A stretch of 64,000 bases of DNA. It comes from Pseudomonadota bacterium. GTDB taxonomy: Bacteria > Desulfobacterota > Desulfovibrionia > Desulfovibrionales > Desulfovibrionaceae. The translations under genes were made by a program, and so were the position numbers. The notes under the pieces are model-generated. The model was given only the letters and a program-made list of their open reading frames with translations. It searched no databases and was not told the DNA's origin. Below are positions 26,599 to 36,185 of the stretch, piece by piece; position 1 is the stretch's first letter; every line of letters begins with the position of its first letter. The stretch spans positions 62,001-126,000 of the forward strand of contig JAHIUW010000016.1 in the NCBI GenBank assembly GCA_018816865.1, given 5' to 3'.

Positions 26599-27126
26599 AT
26601 GAACCAGATGCCCAAGCGTCAAGCCATACTTCTGATCCTGATGGGGCTGGCCGTGATCTACGCCGCCTTCACCCTGATCGGCGGCGATTCGACCGCCAGC
26701 ACACCTCGCACCACGGCCAAAGACTTTACCGAGCTGCTGGAGGGAGTGAAAAAATCCACCGAACTCAACGCCCTGACCGAGGTGGAGGAACATCGCATCA
26801 CCCTGCTCAGCGGTGAAGAGTCACCCGACCCGCTGCTCAAACGCGACCCCATCCAGGGCGATGCCGATTCCACCGCACGCCAAGGGGACACCCGCTTTGT
26901 CTACAGCGGCTTTCTGCGCATCGGAGCCAAGAGATTGGCCGTGATCAATAATTCCGAATACAGCGAGGGGGAACTCGTGGACGAGACAGGCTACACCCTG
27001 CTGACCATCGCCCCCGGCCAGGTCACCCTTGAGGGCCGCAGCGCCGAAAACGGCGGGACGGACAAAGTGGCCATCCCCATCCAGGAAGACATCATCAGCT
27101 TTGTCGAGGACAAAAATGAACAATAG
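26599..27126 (+). CDS. PilP/GspC-like inner-membrane pilus protein (MshK position)
   Basis: The 175-residue protein has an N-terminal transmembrane helix (about 8-26, AILLILMGLAVIYAAF), a polar linker, and a small beta-rich C-terminal domain (FVYSGFLRIGAKRLAVINNSEY) resembling the HR domain of PilP/GspC that contacts the secretin. It sits between the PilO-like gene and the secretin, exactly where MshK/PilP is expected. The final 11 bases overlap the secretin start. Sequence identity to known MshK cannot be judged by eye, so I give no symbol. Confidence 0.65.
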   Translation: MNQMPKRQAILLILMGLAVIYAAFTLIGGDSTASTPRTTAKDFTELLEGVKKSTELNALTEVEEHRITLLSGEESPDPLLKRDPIQGDADSTARQGDTRFVYSGFLRIGAKRLAVINNSEYSEGELVDETGYTLLTIAPGQVTLEGRSAENGGTDKVAIPIQEDIISFVEDKNEQ

Positions 27127-28720
27127 CTCCCCACGCGCCTCACTGATCATCCTGGCAGCCCTGCTGAGCCTGGGTCTGCTGGCCGTGTCCGGCTGTAAAA
27201 AGGACACCACCGAGCGGGACCCCTTCTACGAGAAATGGAAGGCGATGGCCGAGCAGTCCGTGGGCCACAGCCCCTCGCCGCCGCAGCGGGTCGCCCCCAG
27301 CGACCTGGTCGCCAAGGACATCGAACTCGAACCCGAAAATGAGCTGCCCACCGTGATGATCGGTGGCCTGGACATGCGCAACGCCAATATCGTGGCCGTG
27401 CTCCGCGCCCTGGGCAAGATCTCCGGGCAGAGCATCATGGTCAGCCCCGGCGTGACGGGCACCATCAATGTCAATGTCGAGAACCTGCCCTGGGATCAGG
27501 TCTTCCGGGCCCTGACCCGCACCCATGGCCTGGCCTGGGAATGGGAGGGCCAGATCCTGCGGGTGATGACCGCCGAGGACATGGAGATGAACCTCAAGCT
27601 CGACCATATCCGCTCCCGCAAACCCCTGGTGACCACGGCCATCAAGATCAACTACGCCGACGCAGCACAGCTGCGCGATGACATGGAGAAACTGCTGGCC
27701 AAGGACGCCGAGGGCAACGCCCGGGGCTCCGTGGAGGTAGTGGAACATACCAACTCGCTGATCATCCACTCGGTCAAGGAGGATGTGATCAGGTTCGCGG
27801 AACTGGTGGACAAGCTCGACCGGCCCAGCGCCCAGGTCCACTTCAAGGCCTACATCGTGGAGACCTCCAGCGACACCGCCCGCGACCTGGGCATCCAGTG
27901 GGGCGGCAGCTACAAGAATTCGGCCAACAGCAACTCCAACTTCTACGTCATGCCCGGCGGACAGAACTATGACTCCACCACGGGCCTGTACACCTCGACC
28001 CTCAACAACGGCGCCATCGGCCAGTCCGGGCAGGGCTACGGCCTGAACTTCCCGGGCAACGTGCCCAACAACGACGGCGTGGGCGGCCAGTTGGGGCTCA
28101 TGTTCGGCACCCTGGGCGGCAACATCCTGGAAGTGCAACTGCGCGCCCTGGAAGAGGACAACAAGCTGAACATCCTGTCCAACCCGTCCCTGACCACCCT
28201 GGACAACCAAACCGCCTACACCGAAAACGGCGAGGAAGTGCCCTTCGTCACCGTAGACGAGGCGGGCAACTACGAGGTGGAGTGGAAAGAAGCCACCCTG
28301 CGCCTGGAGATCACCCCGCACGTCATCGACGGCATCAACCTGCGCATGGACATCAACGTCAAGAAGGACGAAGTGGACTTCACCCGCACCGTGCAGGGCA
28401 ACCCGCTGATCCTCAAGAAGGCCACCAAGACCAGCCTCGTCAGCCGCACAGGCGAGACCGTGGTTATCTCGGGCTTGAGGCGCTCGCGCCAGACCTCCGG
28501 AGGGGCCGGACTGCCCTACCTGAAGGATATCCCGGGCCTGGGCCACCTCTTCGGCAGCGACAGCAAGGGCGAGGAACTGGAGGAAGTGCTGATCTTCATC
28601 ACGCCCACCATCCTGGCCGAATGGAGAACCGGCGAGGAGCAAAAGACCCTGGAAGAGATTGAGACCAAGATTCAGGATGACATCACCAAGGAACAACAGG
28701 ACAAGGACAGCGACAACTAG
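27116..28720 (+). CDS. mshL: MshL-like secretin lipoprotein, outer-membrane pilus channel
   Basis: The 534-residue protein starts at ATG 27116, overlapping the previous gene. A lipoprotein signal ends at LAVSGC with C27 as the lipidated residue. An STN-type domain follows (ANIVAVLRALGKISGQS, about 90-160), then a NolW-type N-domain (LVTTAIKINYADAAQLRDDME, then NSLIIHSV and VDKLDRP) and the C-terminal secretin barrel with VVISGLRRS, GLPYLKDIPGLGHLF and VLIFITPTIL. This is the outer-membrane ring through which the pilus passes. Its length and lipidation fit MshL. A glycine/asparagine-rich stretch (about 270-330) lies in the channel gate region. Confidence 0.92.
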   Translation: MNNSSPRASLIILAALLSLGLLAVSGCKKDTTERDPFYEKWKAMAEQSVGHSPSPPQRVAPSDLVAKDIELEPENELPTVMIGGLDMRNANIVAVLRALGKISGQSIMVSPGVTGTINVNVENLPWDQVFRALTRTHGLAWEWEGQILRVMTAEDMEMNLKLDHIRSRKPLVTTAIKINYADAAQLRDDMEKLLAKDAEGNARGSVEVVEHTNSLIIHSVKEDVIRFAELVDKLDRPSAQVHFKAYIVETSSDTARDLGIQWGGSYKNSANSNSNFYVMPGGQNYDSTTGLYTSTLNNGAIGQSGQGYGLNFPGNVPNNDGVGGQLGLMFGTLGGNILEVQLRALEEDNKLNILSNPSLTTLDNQTAYTENGEEVPFVTVDEAGNYEVEWKEATLRLEITPHVIDGINLRMDINVKKDEVDFTRTVQGNPLILKKATKTSLVSRTGETVVISGLRRSRQTSGGAGLPYLKDIPGLGHLFGSDSKGEELEEVLIFITPTILAEWRTGEEQKTLEEIETKIQDDITKEQQDKDSDN

Positions 28721-28731
28721 TCGCAACAGCC

Positions 28732-30795
28732 ATGAACTACTTTGAGATCCTCGACCTCAGGATGGAGCCGTTCTCCAACTCCCCCGACCCGGACTTTCTG
28801 TACCGGTCGCAGGGACACGAGCGCTGCCTGCATTCCCTGGAGATCGCGCTGCGGCTGCGGCGCGGCCTGTCCGTGGTCCTGGGCGAAGTGGGCACCGGCA
28901 AGACCACCCTGTGCCGCGAGTTGATCCGCAGCCTGGAGGAGGACGAGTCCGTCACCGCCCGGCTGCTGCTGGACCCGGGTTTCTCCTCCGCCCATGAGCT
29001 GCTGGTGGTGCTGCACGAGATCTTCTGCGGGCCCGTGGCCGGGGACCCGAGCGACTGGCAACTCAAGGAACGCATCAAGGACACCATCCTGACCGCAGGC
29101 CTGGACCAGGAGAAAATCCTGGTGCTGGTGGTGGACGAGGGCCAGAAGATGCCCTCCCACTGCCTGGAAATCCTGCGCGAGCTGCTCAACTATGAGACCA
29201 ATGAGCGCAAGCTGTTGCAGATCGTGCTCTTCGCCCAGAGCGAGTTCCGCCAAACCCTCGCGGCCATGCCCAACCTCGCTGACCGGGTCAACGATCTGAT
29301 CCGGCTGGAGCCACTGTCCCTGTCCGAGACCAAGGCCATGGTCCGCCACCGCCTGGACACGGCCAAGGCCGATTACCGCGCCCCCGAACTCTTCACGGCC
29401 CTGGGCTACCTGGTTCTGCACCGCATCACCGGGGGCTATCCCCGGCGCATCGTGCGCCTCTGCCACAAGGTGGTGCTGGGGCTGATCATGAGACAACGGC
29501 GCAAGGCGGGCTGGAAACTGGTCCGGGCCTGCGCCCGGGAAAACGAAATGTATTCGCAGCCTGGGCAGCACTCTCTGTCCTTGGCCGCGTGCCTTGTCTG
29601 TCTGATGTTTCTGGCCTGGCCCTCAAGCCTCAATCCGGTCCCGCAGGCAGTCCCGTCCTCCCCGGCAAACACCGTGCATCTCAGCAGCTTGGCTGCCCCG
29701 ATCACCGAGTTGCCTCAGAGGCCCGCCCCGGTCACCGTGTCGCCCCAGAGGCCCACCCCAAATCCTGAGACTGTGCAGGTCGTCTCTCCGGCCAGCGACC
29801 AGGCGTCCGCGGACACACCGCCATCGTTCACTGCACAGCCACCGTCGATCCTTGGCGAAGTGAAGGTCCAGGTCGGCGAAAGCATTTCCCTTCTGACGCG
29901 GATGATCTACGGCAGCTTCAACCGCAATACCCTCGGCGCAGTGCTCGACGCCAACCCCGAGGTGGAGAATCCTGATCGGCTCAACGTGGGTGATTCGATC
30001 CGCTTCCCCCTGGCGGGGATGGGTTTCCAACAAGCCTGGTGGGTTCCCCTGGCCGAAGCGCGGACCCTGGCCGGGGCCGTCGCCCACTGGCGGACCGCAC
30101 CTGCCGTGCGGGACCCGCGTATCCTGTTCTGCCGCACAGACAAACAGGAGCCACATTTTGTCGTGACCGCCGGAGGACTCCATCCCTCCCAGGACATAGC
30201 CCGGCGCGAGGCCCAGGCCAACGGGCACCAGACAGCCCCGGTCTCCGGGTGGGCCCTGGTGCCTCCCCCAAAGGCTGGCCCGGATGGCACAACGGTCTTT
30301 CACTCCCCGTCGCAGGCCGTTCCGAACGACGCTCCAGCGCTGACGCTCCCGGTCTTCCTGGGCAAAGTGGACGTGCAAGCCGGGGAGGACCTCCCCATGC
30401 TGGCGCGCACCCTGTATGGCAACGCCAAACCGCAGACCCTTGGCGCGCTCCTCGCCGCCAATCCGTGGCTGAAAAACCCCGACCGGCTCCGCGTGGGTGA
30501 TTCGATCCGCTTCCCCCCTGCGGGGATGGTTTTTCAGGAGGCCTGGTGGGTCCCCATCATCGAGGCCCGAACCCTGGCAGGAGCCGTTGCCCTCTGGCGG
30601 GCCGCACCCGCCATGAACGAGACCCGAATCCTGATGCGGCGCGATGGTCTTGAGGATTTGCGCTTCGTCGTAATCGCCGGGGCACCCTGCCAGTCCGAGG
30701 ATGAAGCCCGACGCGAAGGCGCCAAGGCCGGGGTCCAAACAGCTCCGGTTCGCGGAATCGCCCTGATTTCCAAAATAGTTCGGGCCAAAGGATAG
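28732..30795 (+). CDS. mshM: MshM/ExeA-like AAA ATPase fused to a duplicated LysM-like module
   Basis: Residues 1-270 form an ExeA/MshM-type ATPase (Walker A GEVGTGKT at 51-58, Walker B LVLVVDEGQ near 132, sensor region LRELLNYETN). A transmembrane helix (about 283-298) exports the remainder. After a proline-rich linker two homologous modules of about 140 residues occur (roughly 373-513 and 541-683), each starting with a LysM/tail-X-like repeat (LGEVKVQVGESISLL..., LGKVDVQAGEDLPML..., both ending VGDSIRFP) followed by AWWVP..EARTLAGAVA. The modules should bind peptidoglycan and anchor the secretin ring. Typical MshM lacks them; MshN, absent here, may be replaced by this fusion. Confidence 0.85.
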   Translation: MNYFEILDLRMEPFSNSPDPDFLYRSQGHERCLHSLEIALRLRRGLSVVLGEVGTGKTTLCRELIRSLEEDESVTARLLLDPGFSSAHELLVVLHEIFCGPVAGDPSDWQLKERIKDTILTAGLDQEKILVLVVDEGQKMPSHCLEILRELLNYETNERKLLQIVLFAQSEFRQTLAAMPNLADRVNDLIRLEPLSLSETKAMVRHRLDTAKADYRAPELFTALGYLVLHRITGGYPRRIVRLCHKVVLGLIMRQRRKAGWKLVRACARENEMYSQPGQHSLSLAACLVCLMFLAWPSSLNPVPQAVPSSPANTVHLSSLAAPITELPQRPAPVTVSPQRPTPNPETVQVVSPASDQASADTPPSFTAQPPSILGEVKVQVGESISLLTRMIYGSFNRNTLGAVLDANPEVENPDRLNVGDSIRFPLAGMGFQQAWWVPLAEARTLAGAVAHWRTAPAVRDPRILFCRTDKQEPHFVVTAGGLHPSQDIARREAQANGHQTAPVSGWALVPPPKAGPDGTTVFHSPSQAVPNDAPALTLPVFLGKVDVQAGEDLPMLARTLYGNAKPQTLGALLAANPWLKNPDRLRVGDSIRFPPAGMVFQEAWWVPIIEARTLAGAVALWRAAPAMNETRILMRRDGLEDLRFVVIAGAPCQSEDEARREGAKAGVQTAPVRGIALISKIVRAKG

Positions 30796-30798
30796 ACG

Positions 30799-32505
30799 AT
30801 GAGAATCACAAGCAGAAAACGACTGGGCGAGATGCTCGTGGAAGCGGGCATCATGACCGACGAGCAACTGGCGGAGCACCTGCCCAGCCAGAAGCAGAGC
30901 GGCATGAAGCTCGGCGAATATCTGGTGCACAACTCCGTGGTCAAGGAGCACACCATCCTGGACCTGGTGAGCGGCCAGTTGAACATCCAGCGCTTCAGCT
31001 CGGACACCCACCCCTTCGACATCTCGGTGGCGGAGCTGGTCCCGCTGGAGCTGGTGCAGCAGCATCGCCTGGTCCCCATCAGCCGCAAGGGGCGATTGCT
31101 GTCCGTGGCAACGCCCGATCCCATGGACATCGACGCCCTGGATGCGGTGGAGATCCACACCGGACTCGAGGTGGAACCCCTGATCTGCTCGGAGAAGGAA
31201 TTCGAGAGCCTGTGCTACTCGATCTACGGCATCTCCTCGGACCTGGACCGGGTCATGGAGGGCATGGCGGACGACGGCATCGAGACCGAGGACGGACCGC
31301 AGGGCATCGAATCCGAATTCACGGTGTCCTCGCTCCAGGAAATGGCGGACGAGGCCCCTGTGGTGCGCATGGTGAATTCCATTCTTTCCCAGGCCGTGCG
31401 CGACGGGGCCAGCGACGTGCACATCAGCCCCGAGAAGGACTACGTGCAGCTCAGGTTCCGCGTGGACGGCAAGCTGCGCGAGGTCCCGGCCCCGCCCAAG
31501 AAATTCTTCCTGCCCATCGTCTCGCGCCTGAAGATCTTGGCCAACATGGACATCGCCAGTTCCATGGTCCCCCAGGACGGTCGTTTCTCGTTCAACTACG
31601 AGAAACGCGAGGTGCACGTGCGCGCCTCCAGCCTGCCCACCATCTACGGCGAGAACATGATCCTGCGCCTCTTGCTGCGCAACGGCAGCGGGCTGAGCCT
31701 GGACGACCTGGGCATGATCGAGAGCGACCGCAACAAGCTGATTTACGCGGTGGGACGGCCCTATGGCATGATCCTCTCCACCGGCCCCACGGGCAGCGGC
31801 AAGAGCACCAGCCTGTATGCGGTGCTCCGCAGCATCAACCAGCCGGACATCAACATCATCACCCTGGAGGACCCGGTGGAATACCGGGTGGCCAAGATCC
31901 GGCAGGTGCAGTTGAACAAAAAGGCGGGTATGACCTTTGCCAGCGGCCTGCGCTCCATCCTGCGTCAGGACCCGGACGTGATCATGGTCGGCGAGATCCG
32001 CGACGCGGAAACGGCGGGCATCGCCGTGCAGGCCGCGCTCACGGGCCACCGTCTGCTGTCCACCATCCATACCAACGACGCCGCCGGAGCCGTGACCCGC
32101 TTGACGGAGATGGGCATCGAGCCCTTCCTGGTGGCCTCCACCCTGCTGGTGTCCGTGGCCCAGCGGCTGATCCGCAAGGTCTGCCCACATTGCAAGGAAA
32201 CCTACGATCCGCCATCGGAGGCCCTGGAGGCCATGGGCATCTCCCCCAACGGACATACCTTTTACCGGGGCCGGGGCTGCGCCCAGTGCAACCAGGTGGG
32301 CTACCTGGGCCGCGTGGGCCTGTTCGAGATCCTGCCCATCGATGACATGGTCCAGGCCCTGATCATGCGCCGGGCCTCGGCGCGGGAGATCACCCGCGCG
32401 GCCATGGAGGCGGGCACCCTGCGCACCTTGCGCGAAGACGCCGCGGCCAAGGTCGTGGCCGGAATCACCACCCTTGAAGAGGCCGCTTCGGCGGTCCTGG
32501 TCTAG
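30799..32505 (+). CDS. mshE: MshE-like pilus extension ATPase with cyclic di-GMP-binding N-domain
   Basis: The 568-residue type II/IV secretion ATPase has an N-terminal MshEN pattern (RLGEMLVEAGIMTDEQLAEHL, about 7-27, repeated as KLGEYLVHNSVVKEHTILDL), the fold that binds cyclic di-GMP. Walker A (GPTGSGKST) is near residue 328, Asp box and Walker B (DPDVIMVGEIRD) follow, and the tetracysteine zinc motif CPHC...CAQC lies at about 461-496. This places pilus assembly under cyclic di-GMP control, as shown for Vibrio MshE. It lies three bases after mshM. The full set of motifs indicates an active enzyme, and it powers polymerisation at the inner membrane. Confidence 0.95.
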   Translation: MRITSRKRLGEMLVEAGIMTDEQLAEHLPSQKQSGMKLGEYLVHNSVVKEHTILDLVSGQLNIQRFSSDTHPFDISVAELVPLELVQQHRLVPISRKGRLLSVATPDPMDIDALDAVEIHTGLEVEPLICSEKEFESLCYSIYGISSDLDRVMEGMADDGIETEDGPQGIESEFTVSSLQEMADEAPVVRMVNSILSQAVRDGASDVHISPEKDYVQLRFRVDGKLREVPAPPKKFFLPIVSRLKILANMDIASSMVPQDGRFSFNYEKREVHVRASSLPTIYGENMILRLLLRNGSGLSLDDLGMIESDRNKLIYAVGRPYGMILSTGPTGSGKSTSLYAVLRSINQPDINIITLEDPVEYRVAKIRQVQLNKKAGMTFASGLRSILRQDPDVIMVGEIRDAETAGIAVQAALTGHRLLSTIHTNDAAGAVTRLTEMGIEPFLVASTLLVSVAQRLIRKVCPHCKETYDPPSEALEAMGISPNGHTFYRGRGCAQCNQVGYLGRVGLFEILPIDDMVQALIMRRASAREITRAAMEAGTLRTLREDAAAKVVAGITTLEEAASAVLV

Positions 32506-33886: not shown

Positions 33887-34291
33887 ATGCAGAAGAAACA
33901 GATGAAGCGCGGCTTCACGCTCATCGAGCTGATCGCCGTCATGGTCATCCTCGGCATCCTCGCCGCAGTGGCCATCCCCAAGTACACGGACATGACAGCC
34001 GAGGCTGAAAAGGGTGCCGCCAACGGCTTCCTGGCCGCCGGCATGTCCCAGGTGAGCATGGAGTTCGCAAAGGAGGCCATGAGCGCCGCGACGGATTCCA
34101 CCAAGGATCCGGCTAACATCGATATGACCGTGGTAGCTGCTGCGGCCACCGCCAGCTACGCCGGCGGCGACGGTTACGCCGTGAGCTATGCGGGAACTGG
34201 CTCTGGCAGCGGGGGCACCGTCGTTGTCACTGTCGGATATGGCACCGGCGCCGGCGCTGGTACCATCACTAAAACCTGGACCGCACCCTGA
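33887..34291 (+). CDS. mshA: Major type IV (MSHA-like) prepilin
   Basis: The 134-residue protein has a short basic leader and the cleavage site KRG|FTLIEL, with the mature protein starting at F10 and the conserved glutamate five residues in. The hydrophobic helix is complete (ELIAVMVILGILAAVAIPKY). The C-terminal domain is small, glycine/alanine/threonine-rich and lacks the usual disulfide cysteines. A strong ribosome site (AAGGAGC), its own promoter and a 34-bp palindrome behind it suggest high expression, so I regard it as the major subunit. MshB-like minor status cannot be excluded, because a similar gene follows. Confidence 0.85.
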   Translation: MQKKQMKRGFTLIELIAVMVILGILAAVAIPKYTDMTAEAEKGAANGFLAAGMSQVSMEFAKEAMSAATDSTKDPANIDMTVVAAAATASYAGGDGYAVSYAGTGSGSGGTVVVTVGYGTGAGAGTITKTWTAP

Positions 34292-34310
34292 GGACTTAAA
34301 TATCAATTAT

Positions 34311-34344
34311 CCCAGGAGGGGGGACGTACGTCCCCCCTCCTGGG
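34311..34344. repeat. 34-bp perfect palindrome after the major prepilin gene
   Basis: Two 17-base arms are exact reverse complements with no spacer (arm CCCAGGAGGGGGGACGT). It lies 20 bases after the pilin stop. There is no T-run behind it, so it is more probably an mRNA 3'-end stabiliser or partial attenuator than a classic terminator. It separates the highly expressed pilin from the minor pilins. Confidence 0.9.
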
Positions 34345-34366
34345 TACAAGCAAATGAGTCAAACGA

Positions 34367-34738
34367 TTGGCAACAACCAGCTTGAAACATAGGCTCCGGG
34401 GCTTCACTCTCATCGAGCTCATCGCCGTGATGGTGGTGCTGGGGCTGTTGGCCGCCATTGCCATCAGCAAAACCACCTCGCTTGTGGAAGAATCGCACCA
34501 CGCAACGGCCCAGGGGGCCATTGCCGTGGGCCAAAGCACCCTGACTCAGGCCCTGGCCAAGGTCATGCTCAATCCGGACCTGGAGGATACCGCCGCCAAC
34601 GTCACAATCGAGGCGAACAAGAACAAGCCAAGCGGCGAATACACCCTTGGATTTTCCGCCTCTTCCACAGGGAGCGAGATCACAATCACCGCAACCAGAG
34701 ACGGAATTTCCACAACCGGGACCTGGACCATGCCATGA
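34367..34738 (+). CDS. Second MSHA-like prepilin
   Basis: The 123-residue protein has the cleavage site LRG|FTLIEL and a near-copy of the helix in the preceding prepilin (ELIAVMVVLGLLAAIAISKT), so the two genes are probably paralogues. The C-terminal region is short and lacks cysteines. No ATG is available in this frame; TTG at 34367 or TTG at 34382 must be used. A short ATG frame (34354-34392, 12 residues) overlaps the start in another phase and could couple or regulate translation. The expression level is probably lower than that of the first prepilin. Confidence 0.8.
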   Translation: MATTSLKHRLRGFTLIELIAVMVVLGLLAAIAISKTTSLVEESHHATAQGAIAVGQSTLTQALAKVMLNPDLEDTAANVTIEANKNKPSGEYTLGFSASSTGSEITITATRDGISTTGTWTMP

Positions 34739-35244
34739 GCAAAAGCACCCTTCTGATCAACACAAGCAGGACCAGCGGTCGTCCACACCGCGGCTTCACC
34801 TTGATGGAGGTCATCGCCGTACTGATCATCATGGCCATCATCGCCGTGGGGCTGAGCGTCTCTTACGACAGTGGCTTCCATGATCTGGAACAGGAGACCG
34901 ATCTGCTGCGCTCACGTATCAGGTACGCACAGTCCAGAGCCCTGGGCAACAATTCCCCCTTTGGCATAGCCTGCACCGGAGGACAATATTTTCTCTTCAG
35001 CGGACTCTCCACCGCCACAACTCACGTCTTCCCCGGTGAGGATCAGCCACAGTATTCGCTGCCCAACGGAATAACGGCGAACTCCTTCATCATTTCCTTC
35101 GACGGCTGGGGAGTTCCCTATTCCAATGCCGCGCAAGCTACAGCCCTGACCATCGCGACAACCATTACCCTGACCTCCTCCCAGGGCGGAAAAACAGAAT
35201 CGAGCACGACCACGGTCACGCCGCTCACGGGCTTTGTGCCATGA
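34735..35244 (+). CDS. Minor prepilin, GspH/MshC type
   Basis: The 169-residue protein has a long basic leader and cleavage site HRG|FTLMEV (glutamate at +5 present), a hydrophobic helix (IAVLIIMAIIAVGLSV) and a beta-rich C-terminal domain containing the LLRSRIRYAQSRAL element typical of GspH/FimT-like pseudopilins. Minor pilins of this kind sit at the tip complex and prime assembly. Its ATGA start overlaps the previous stop by 4 bases. The order after the prepilins corresponds to mshC. Confidence 0.82.
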   Translation: MSKSTLLINTSRTSGRPHRGFTLMEVIAVLIIMAIIAVGLSVSYDSGFHDLEQETDLLRSRIRYAQSRALGNNSPFGIACTGGQYFLFSGLSTATTHVFPGEDQPQYSLPNGITANSFIISFDGWGVPYSNAAQATALTIATTITLTSSQGGKTESSTTTVTPLTGFVP

Positions 35245-35630
35245 CAAAAAAGCTCAACCCTTCACGTTCTGCGGGCTTCACCCTGATTGAGGTCATCGCG
35301 GCACTGGTTGTCGGCCTGCTAGTCAGCACCCTCCTCGTGGAGCTGGGATTCTTTCTCAAACACAGCCCCGAAGCCCTGGATATGGTCGATACCCAGTATG
35401 AAACCCTGCGTGAAATGGAACGGGTGACCAGCCAGTATCGCAACGAATTGGAAAACGGGACATTGAATCTGAGCTCCCTGCTGACCAACTGGAGTGCAGA
35501 ATCGGGCGTGACCTTGACTAAAGAGACCGTGAATGTGTCGGCCACGGACGGATCCTTCACCTTCCATGGGATACACAAGGTCCAAATCACCAAGAGCGGG
35601 CAATCCATGACCGCCTATTTCACGGAATAA
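35241..35630 (+). CDS. Minor prepilin, GspI/MshD type
   Basis: The 129-residue protein has cleavage site SAG|FTLIEV, a helix containing VIAALVVGLLVSTLLVELG and a short C-terminal domain of about 90 residues. The ELENGTLNLSSLLTNW segment suggests a helix-strand arrangement. It overlaps the previous gene by 4 bases and precedes the MshO-type gene by 15. The GspI/MshD position and size agree. Fold details cannot be confirmed by eye. Confidence 0.75.
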   Translation: MTKKLNPSRSAGFTLIEVIAALVVGLLVSTLLVELGFFLKHSPEALDMVDTQYETLREMERVTSQYRNELENGTLNLSSLLTNWSAESGVTLTKETVNVSATDGSFTFHGIHKVQITKSGQSMTAYFTE

Positions 35631-35645
35631 GGGTAGAACTTAGCC

Positions 35646-36185
35646 ATGCACAACAGACATGCCGCCGGATTCACCCTCATCGAACTGATCGCCGCACTGA
35701 TCCTGACCGCTCTGGTGGGCACAGCCTTTGTCATGGCTCTGGCCTTTGGCACCGAGCAATATATCCTGAGCAACCAAACGGCCACCCTGGCACAAAAATC
35801 CCGGTTGACCCTGGCCCGCATGTACATTGAATTGGCGGAAATCCAGGGACTGGATCTCGCCCACAAAAATCAGATCGACAAAACAAATTTCTATTATATC
35901 GACCACAATGGGAACGCCGGTTCCATCACTCTGTCATCAGGCACTTTGCTGATGAACAGCCAGTACACTTTGGTTGACGGGGTAGGGACCTATGGATCGG
36001 GCCAAGCACTATTCACCTACCACGACGGGGCAGGCAACTCCTGGACCCCAGCAGACGGATTCGATGATTTGAACGAAATCGCCATCGAACTCCGCCTGAC
36101 AAACCCTGACGGCTCAAGCAGTACCTTTGTCCACTCCGTCAATCCCCGCGGATCCCGTATCCCCAACGCACCCCAAATGGAATGA
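35646..36185 (+). CDS. Minor prepilin, GspJ/MshO type
   Basis: The 179-residue protein has cleavage site AAG|FTLIEL, a helix IELIAALILTALVGTAFVMAL and a C-terminal domain with the QKSRLTLARMYIELAEI helix found in PulJ/GspJ-like minor pilins. The C-terminus is beta-rich with DGVGTYGSGQALFTY and GFDDLNEIAIELRL. It should interact with the GspI- and GspK-like partners at the tip. The gene ends 13 bases before the large PilX-like gene. Confidence 0.78.
   Translation: MHNRHAAGFTLIELIAALILTALVGTAFVMALAFGTEQYILSNQTATLAQKSRLTLARMYIELAEIQGLDLAHKNQIDKTNFYYIDHNGNAGSITLSSGTLLMNSQYTLVDGVGTYGSGQALFTYHDGAGNSWTPADGFDDLNEIAIELRLTNPDGSSSTFVHSVNPRGSRIPNAPQME

Follow-up and report, generated by a model that had tools for sequence, protein, structure and literature searches.

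The closest described counterparts of the gene studied here are the ATPases ExeA/GspA of the type II secretion systems of Aeromonas and Vibrio, and MshM of the MSHA pilus. ExeA is reported to bind peptidoglycan and to multimerise on it together with ExeB (PMC4098917), and ExeA/GspA is described as having a single PF01471 domain (PMC9239104). The same source describes the peptidoglycan-binding parts of secretin systems as variable, with a LysM-like domain in TsaP, which holds the secretin of the type IV pilus to the wall, and a SPOR domain in the Legionella secretin (PMC9239104). For the MSHA pilus, mshA, mshE, mshG, mshL and mshM are listed as mandatory genes (PMC6668835). In the account given of a Vibrio cholerae mshM deletion, however, the surface pilus was not lowered (PMC4624765), and the ATPase may therefore be dispensable.

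In the window, by which we mean the whole analysed stretch of 64,000 nucleotides, the gene at 28732-30795 resembles ExeA/GspA in that it encodes an AAA+ ATPase with one transmembrane helix and a C-terminal end of peptidoglycan-binding type, adjoins a secretin gene and possibly has a GspB-like neighbour (26599-27126). It differs in the binding part, since two modules with a LysM-like and a SPOR-like half are found here in place of the one PF01471 domain. PF01471 is absent from the 25 best Pfam families of the 687-residue protein, and scanning each module separately up to E 10 did not find it either. The preliminary description had stated that the peptidoglycan-binding domain of ExeA is of a different kind, which agrees with the second ExeA-like ATPase of the same genome (L032, G000:C28:25740-26837), composed of AAA_22 and PF01471. 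With the MSHA system the locus shares the order secretin, ATPase, MshE-like motor, platform and pilins, the motor having an MshEN domain with a c-di-GMP motif, and apart from MshN this resembles the series of V. cholerae genes from mshI to mshG (PMC4624765). The differences are that the window has no gene at the place of MshN, and that the secretin is recognised by the PilQ model and falls far short of the MshL cut-off.

Two further proteins are of interest for comparison. TsaP likewise has a LysM-like domain, but is described as another pilus component and not as an ATPase (PMC9239104). DamX, which is reported to bind peptidoglycan at the septum (PMC6895207), shares with our protein a C-terminal SPOR-type fold, whereas the E. 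coli protein has a clear SPOR domain (54.1 bits), no AAA domain in Pfam and only 15% identity in a whole-length alignment. A kinship of the two as AAA-SPOR proteins was rejected, given the lack of an AAA domain in E. coli DamX and the weak result of a profile comparison between the modules and DamX (probability 6.9%, E 0.0052, 39 columns). No published description of a protein combining AAA, LysM and SPOR was found in a literature search conducted mostly outside subscription journals.

The ATPase and its membrane anchor

The reading frame at 28732-30795 (forward strand, as are all features below) is open, as previously described, and encodes 687 residues with no internal stop. The protein matches Pfam AAA_22 with an E-value of 1.8e-19 (70.8 bits, cut-off 27), and scores 155.3 bits against TIGR03015, below the cut-off of 324.5. 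The AAA+ domain comprises residues 1-270 (28732-29541) and would face the cytoplasm. Its predicted fold resembles the AAA+ ATPases Cdc6/ORC, TnsC and MuB (Z up to 21.0, rmsd 2.7, 250 aligned residues). The Walker A motif GEVGTGKT at residues 51-58 (28882-28905) and the Walker B region, with LVLVVDE at residues 130-136 (29119-29139), contain residues that are invariant in 18 aligned sequences (the window protein and 17 relatives), namely G51, G54, G56 and K57 in the former and L132, D135 and E136 in the latter.

The only hydrophobic stretch above the Kyte-Doolittle threshold of 1.5 spans about residues 278-303, with a peak of 1.96, and we place a single transmembrane helix at about residues 279-300 (29566-29631), in line with a helix at 279-295 in the AF2 model. 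It is followed by a Pro/Ser/Thr-rich linker at residues 301-371 (29632-29844), probably periplasmic and predicted to be flexible (pLDDT below 50 at 298-369). A second flexible linker, residues 513-541 (30268-30354; pLDDT below 50 at 514-542), separates the two modules. In this full-length model the confidence in module 2 is modest, with block pLDDT of about 50-78. The features of the GspA/ExeA/MshM family, an AAA_22-type domain with Walker motifs followed by one transmembrane helix, are thus present, and the assignment to the MshM/ExeA type made in the preliminary description is upheld by these features and by the pilus/T2SS-like gene cluster.

Composition of the C-terminal modules

Each module is a composite, of which the first approximately 55 residues are LysM-like, with good support, and the next approximately 80 residues SPOR-like, with moderate support, the names being given by fold and by relatives. 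In module 1 the LysM-like part comprises residues 372-426 (29845-30009) and the SPOR-like part residues 433-512 (30028-30267); the corresponding parts of module 2 are residues 542-595 (30355-30516) and 602-683 (30535-30780). HMMs derived in successive rounds from proteins of the very set they were applied to match residues 373-426 (3e-20) and 433-495 (3e-10) in module 1, and residues 543-595 (1e-18) and 602-665 (2e-12) in module 2.

The structural models are consistent with this division. When module 2 was folded alone with AF2, with nine other modules as alignment, the model had a pLDDT of 88.8 and the order strand-helix-helix-strand, followed by strand-helix-strand-strand-helix-strand. The first part corresponds to the beta-alpha-alpha-beta order of the LysM fold and the second to the beta-alpha-beta-beta-alpha-beta order of the SPOR fold; for the SPOR-like part of module 1 the full-length model shows a comparable succession of strands and helices. 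LysM chains in the PDB fit the first approximately 59 residues of the module 2 model with Z up to 5.0 (1.9 A over 56 residues), most rows lying at 1.5-2.4 A, and the module profile is similar to the solved LysM proteins SafA (9.7e-6), Ecp6 (4.8e-5) and Kbp (7.6e-5). For the second part, residues 59-137 of the module model fit the SPOR chains 1x60, 6i05, 6i09, 2lfv and 6ztg, which are domains of CwlC, RlpA, DamX and DedD, with low Z of 2.9-3.9, while the best single row was an exported protein (6ozd, Z 5.6). A comparison of the module profile with DamX was insignificant (E 0.42), and a Foldseek search with the single module yielded nothing below E 0.001.

We use the terms LysM-like and SPOR-like rather than LysM and SPOR because no Pfam family attains its cut-off in either window copy. 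The whole protein scores 16.3 bits against Phage_tail_X (cut-off 22) and 14.5 bits against LysM2_NFP (cut-off 36). Module 1 alone matches only LysM2_NFP, at 12.8 bits and likewise below the cut-off of 36, module 2 alone has no Pfam match up to E 10, and PF05036 (SPOR) matches neither module up to E 10. A SPOR search of the same genome at E 0.001 found four other places, the 28732-30795 gene not being among them. The protein of the congener, by which we mean the one other genome of the genus examined (two in all), does reach the Phage_tail_X cut-off (28.2 bits versus 22). Among 10 aligned modules scanned with E up to 1, Phage_tail_X was matched by 5, SPOR by 4 (best E 2e-5) and LysM by 2. The earlier characterisation of the modules as LysM-like holds, by profile and by predicted fold, for the first part of each module; a LysM identity over the entire module was rejected in view of the SPOR-like order and PDB matches of the second part.

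Extent and age of the duplication

The two tandem modules are identical at 82 of 140 aligned residues (58.6%), and both contain VGDSIRFP and EARTLAGAVA, in agreement with the two similar modules of about 140 residues first reported. Their local alignment scores 398, whereas none of 1000 shuffles scored above 54. When the DNA is compared at an offset of 507 nt, 206 of 287 nucleotides coincide, while about 20,000 random pairs of 287 nt from the window had at most 115 identical positions. The nearly identical DNA stretch mentioned in the preliminary description proved to be an exact 26-nt repeat at 29985-30010 and 30492-30517, so that the second copy starts 2 nt from the position 30494 given there.

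A tree of the modules groups the two window copies as sisters (support 100/99), with 1.42 changes per column on the stem leading to them. Between the copies dN is 0.35 and dS 0.81, a ratio of about 0.43, whereas dN between the window copies and the congener module is 0.74 and 0.80, about twice as large. The topology says that the duplication is specific to the window lineage. That it was recent, as had been proposed, is doubtful. The dS of 0.81 is no smaller than that between the two species for the ATPase domain (0.60) or the GspE gene (0.63), and lies within the range of 0.60-1.36 found in seven comparisons with the congener, which covered the ATPase domain and six genes near it. This range leaves out five pilin-like genes whose dS was at least 1.7 or saturated. 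By synonymous sites the duplication is thus not clearly recent, and the data would equally suit an older duplication followed by gene conversion, the congener having lost its second copy. We also considered whether the gene as a whole had evolved faster in the window lineage, but dropped the idea: the window branch in the AAA-domain tree is longer (0.094 versus 0.0082; both trees were made from 27 chosen proteins of the 131 in which conservation was counted, see below), but three-way counts for the AAA domain with six outgroups were mixed.

Distribution among relatives

We collected 113 proteins, one per locus (L001-L113), of which 33 came from genome searches and 80 were the best of 396 from a contig search. 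One LysM-like plus SPOR-like module is present in 96 of them, a count not independent of the HMMs, which were built and iterated on the same set, and two modules only in the window protein; 14 have no module, L022 has the SPOR-like part only and L025 the LysM-like part only. Genomes with a match numbered 43 of 59 in the first search, 68 of 199 at the order level and 83 of 395 at the phylum level, these sets overlapping. The matches listed for the 199 order-level and 395 phylum-level genomes included no further reading frame in which two modules are complete; in these scans no more than 19 and 9 first-look candidates, respectively, were scored in any one genome, so that weak second copies could have escaped. 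Two frames in the order-level scan, in genomes G130 and G039, have two LysM-length matches without SPOR parts. The congener has one module. The fusion of such modules to the ATPase is therefore common among the relatives collected, so that the refutation foreseen in the preliminary description, relatives in which the modules are not joined to MshM, did not come about. The one-module form is the usual design in the group and not an oddity, and two modules are a modest lineage-specific variation and not a new machine.

The C-terminal end of this ATPase family is otherwise loose. In L016 an AMIN domain takes the place of the module (20.6 bits, cut-off 20.5), L012 has SPOR above the Pfam cut-off (26.4 versus 21 bits) without a LysM part, L009 has SPOR alone below the cut-off, and L013 and L017 have only AAA families in Pfam. 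With AMIN, SPOR, PF01471 or none of these at the end, the wall-side part of the ATPase is thus interchangeable. We also observed three proteins from another genus of the same order (L129, L132 and L138) that have no AAA domain and in which a LysM-like and a SPOR-like part are followed by further SPOR-like stretches; one such stretch of L138 matches Pfam SPOR (28.2 bits), and the others were judged by eye. A mobile origin of the gene was rejected after a plasmid search, in which none of 34 records covered 80% of the query at a single place and all were below 60% identity.

Possible role of the second module

Taken together, our data make it probable that the protein is a GspA/MshM-type ATPase of an MSHA-like pilus or pseudopilus, in which the second LysM-like plus SPOR-like module provides an extra predicted peptidoglycan anchor during secretin or pilus assembly. 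The protein would be held in the inner membrane with a periplasmic arm carrying the two modules on flexible linkers, each copy presenting a LysM-like domain, the likely glycan reader, and then a diverged SPOR-like domain. The cytoplasmic AAA+ domains would multimerise with ATP, the arm would extend into the peptidoglycan, and the wall-held complex, via a GspB/PilP-like adaptor for which the gene at 26599-27126 is a candidate, could aid insertion of the secretin through the wall. A second module would give each subunit two wall contacts, by which either avidity or reach might increase. The suggestion that the second copy tunes wall binding is plausible in this respect, and both copies are retained, with a dN/dS of about 0.43 and 9 of 10 conserved LysM positions intact in each.

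The second copy could also be a neutral tandem duplication, in which one module works and the other is tolerated on an arm of flexible linkers. We regard this as possible but less likely. The looseness of the periplasmic end in this ATPase family, which may consist of LysM-like plus SPOR-like parts, AMIN, SPOR alone or AAA families only, is in line with such an origin, as are the occurrence of two modules in only 1 of 113 collected proteins and the fast evolution of the modules, which are identical to that of the congener at 50/140 and 48/140 residues compared with 241/269 in the ATPase domain. However, decay would be expected of a copy without use at a dS of 0.81, while both copies are open, under moderate constraint and have kept the conserved LysM positions.

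The two halves of the modules appear to have had different fates. Conservation was counted over 117 stretches from 131 proteins (the 113 collected, and 18 of 30 loci from the order-level search). In the SPOR-like half, seven of the conserved positions were covered and three further conserved columns were not; of the seven, five are kept and two are changed (W to R, and G to E or D) in both window copies. The conserved SPOR glutamine that contacts denuded glycan is described as Q270 in RlpA (PMC6895207). The likely equivalent position, located from where the RlpA match begins (residue 63 of the model against 266 of the chain) and from the glutamine of relatives, is Pro in both window copies and Gln in the congener. 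This glutamine is not universal in the module family of the ATPase, since only 27 of the 117 stretches have Gln, compared with Arg in 27, Lys in 17 and Pro in 2. As the two copies share these changes, drift of the SPOR-like half seems to have preceded the duplication, and with Pro at the Gln position and two of seven conserved residues changed this half may not bind denuded glycan. It is tempting to speculate, with little confidence, that the composite is a two-reader wall clamp common among the GspA/MshM ATPases of the phylum, in which a LysM-like reader of ordinary glycan is joined to a SPOR-like half that once recognised peptide-stripped septal glycan and would have placed secretins at division sites. 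Here the SPOR-like half would first have lost its glycan contact, and the clamp would then have been doubled, septal targeting being traded for bivalent general wall anchoring.

If the modules have lost wall binding altogether, they might serve mainly in oligomerisation or in docking to another protein, for example the secretin or the GspB-like adaptor. The SPOR-like halves without the Gln and other family-conserved residues would be compatible with this, as would the higher number of scanned modules matching Phage_tail_X than LysM (5/10 versus 2/10). The LysM-like half nevertheless retains the residues conserved in the family, and SafA and Ecp6 are among the best PDB matches of the profile by their LysM domains, the Ecp6 structure containing a GlcNAc tetramer according to its title; a mainly docking or oligomerising role is quite unlikely.

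More generally, our results suggest that the wall-gripping part of many secretin-assembly ATPases of the phylum is a LysM-like and SPOR-like composite rather than the textbook PF01471 of ExeA, and that this part changes fast and can duplicate while the ATPase domain hardly varies. Two species of one genus, one with a single module and the other with two, represent a natural experiment on how many wall contacts are needed for secretin assembly.

Gene neighbourhood

The gene order is a PilM-like gene (from 23958), two small genes (26053 and 26599), the secretin (27029), the ATPase, a GspE/MshE-type gene (30799), GspF (32474) and pilin-like genes. The second small gene (26599-27126), at the MshK position, encodes a possible GspB/PilP-like partner, with a T2SSB match of 5.4e-4 and 20.0 bits, below the cut-off of 28.4. 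The secretin (27029-28720) matches Pfam Secretin at 2.9e-42 and exceeds the cut-off of TIGR02515 PilQ (293.4 versus 284.35 bits), but with 78.9 bits it is far below that of the MshL model (250.2). Of the MSHA gene set, pilin-like, MshE-like, MshG-like and MshM-like genes are thus present together with a PilQ-like secretin. The GspE/PilB/MshE-type ATPase (30799-32505) starts 3 nt past the stop of our ATPase and has the T2SSE (1.9e-131) and MshEN (1.5e-13) domains. The c-di-GMP-binding motif of this motor is above the cut-off as well (54.9 versus 38 bits), and the pilus may be controlled by c-di-GMP.

The context of secretin and GspE/MshE genes beside the ATPase recurs in the relatives. Upstream of the 96 one-module genes there was a secretin match in 88, none in 4 and too short a contig (less than 400 nt) in 4. 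Downstream, 84 have a GspE/MshE match (median distance 23 nt), which lies beyond 500 nt only in L018 (586 nt) and L069 (2107 nt); of the other 12, six contigs end within 400 nt and six have no GspE match in 401-2296 nt, L015 and L097 being those with more than 1 kb of downstream sequence. In 82 of the 84 the gap is therefore within 500 nt, too little for the usual gene of a TPR protein, which is larger than this. A replacement of the missing MshN by the second module, as once proposed, is accordingly very improbable: V. cholerae mshN (VC0404) is placed between mshM and mshE (PMC4624765) and the window has nothing between the ATPase stop (30795) and the next start (30799), but the one-module relatives mostly lack this space too, and MshN, for which a TPR architecture and homology to TadD are given (PMC4624765; PMC6668835), is unlike LysM or SPOR.

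Further downstream, at 33887-36185, five pilin-like genes are 33-56% identical to the best matches of the congener and differ in arrangement, whereas the two ATPases near them are about 90% identical to those of the congener.
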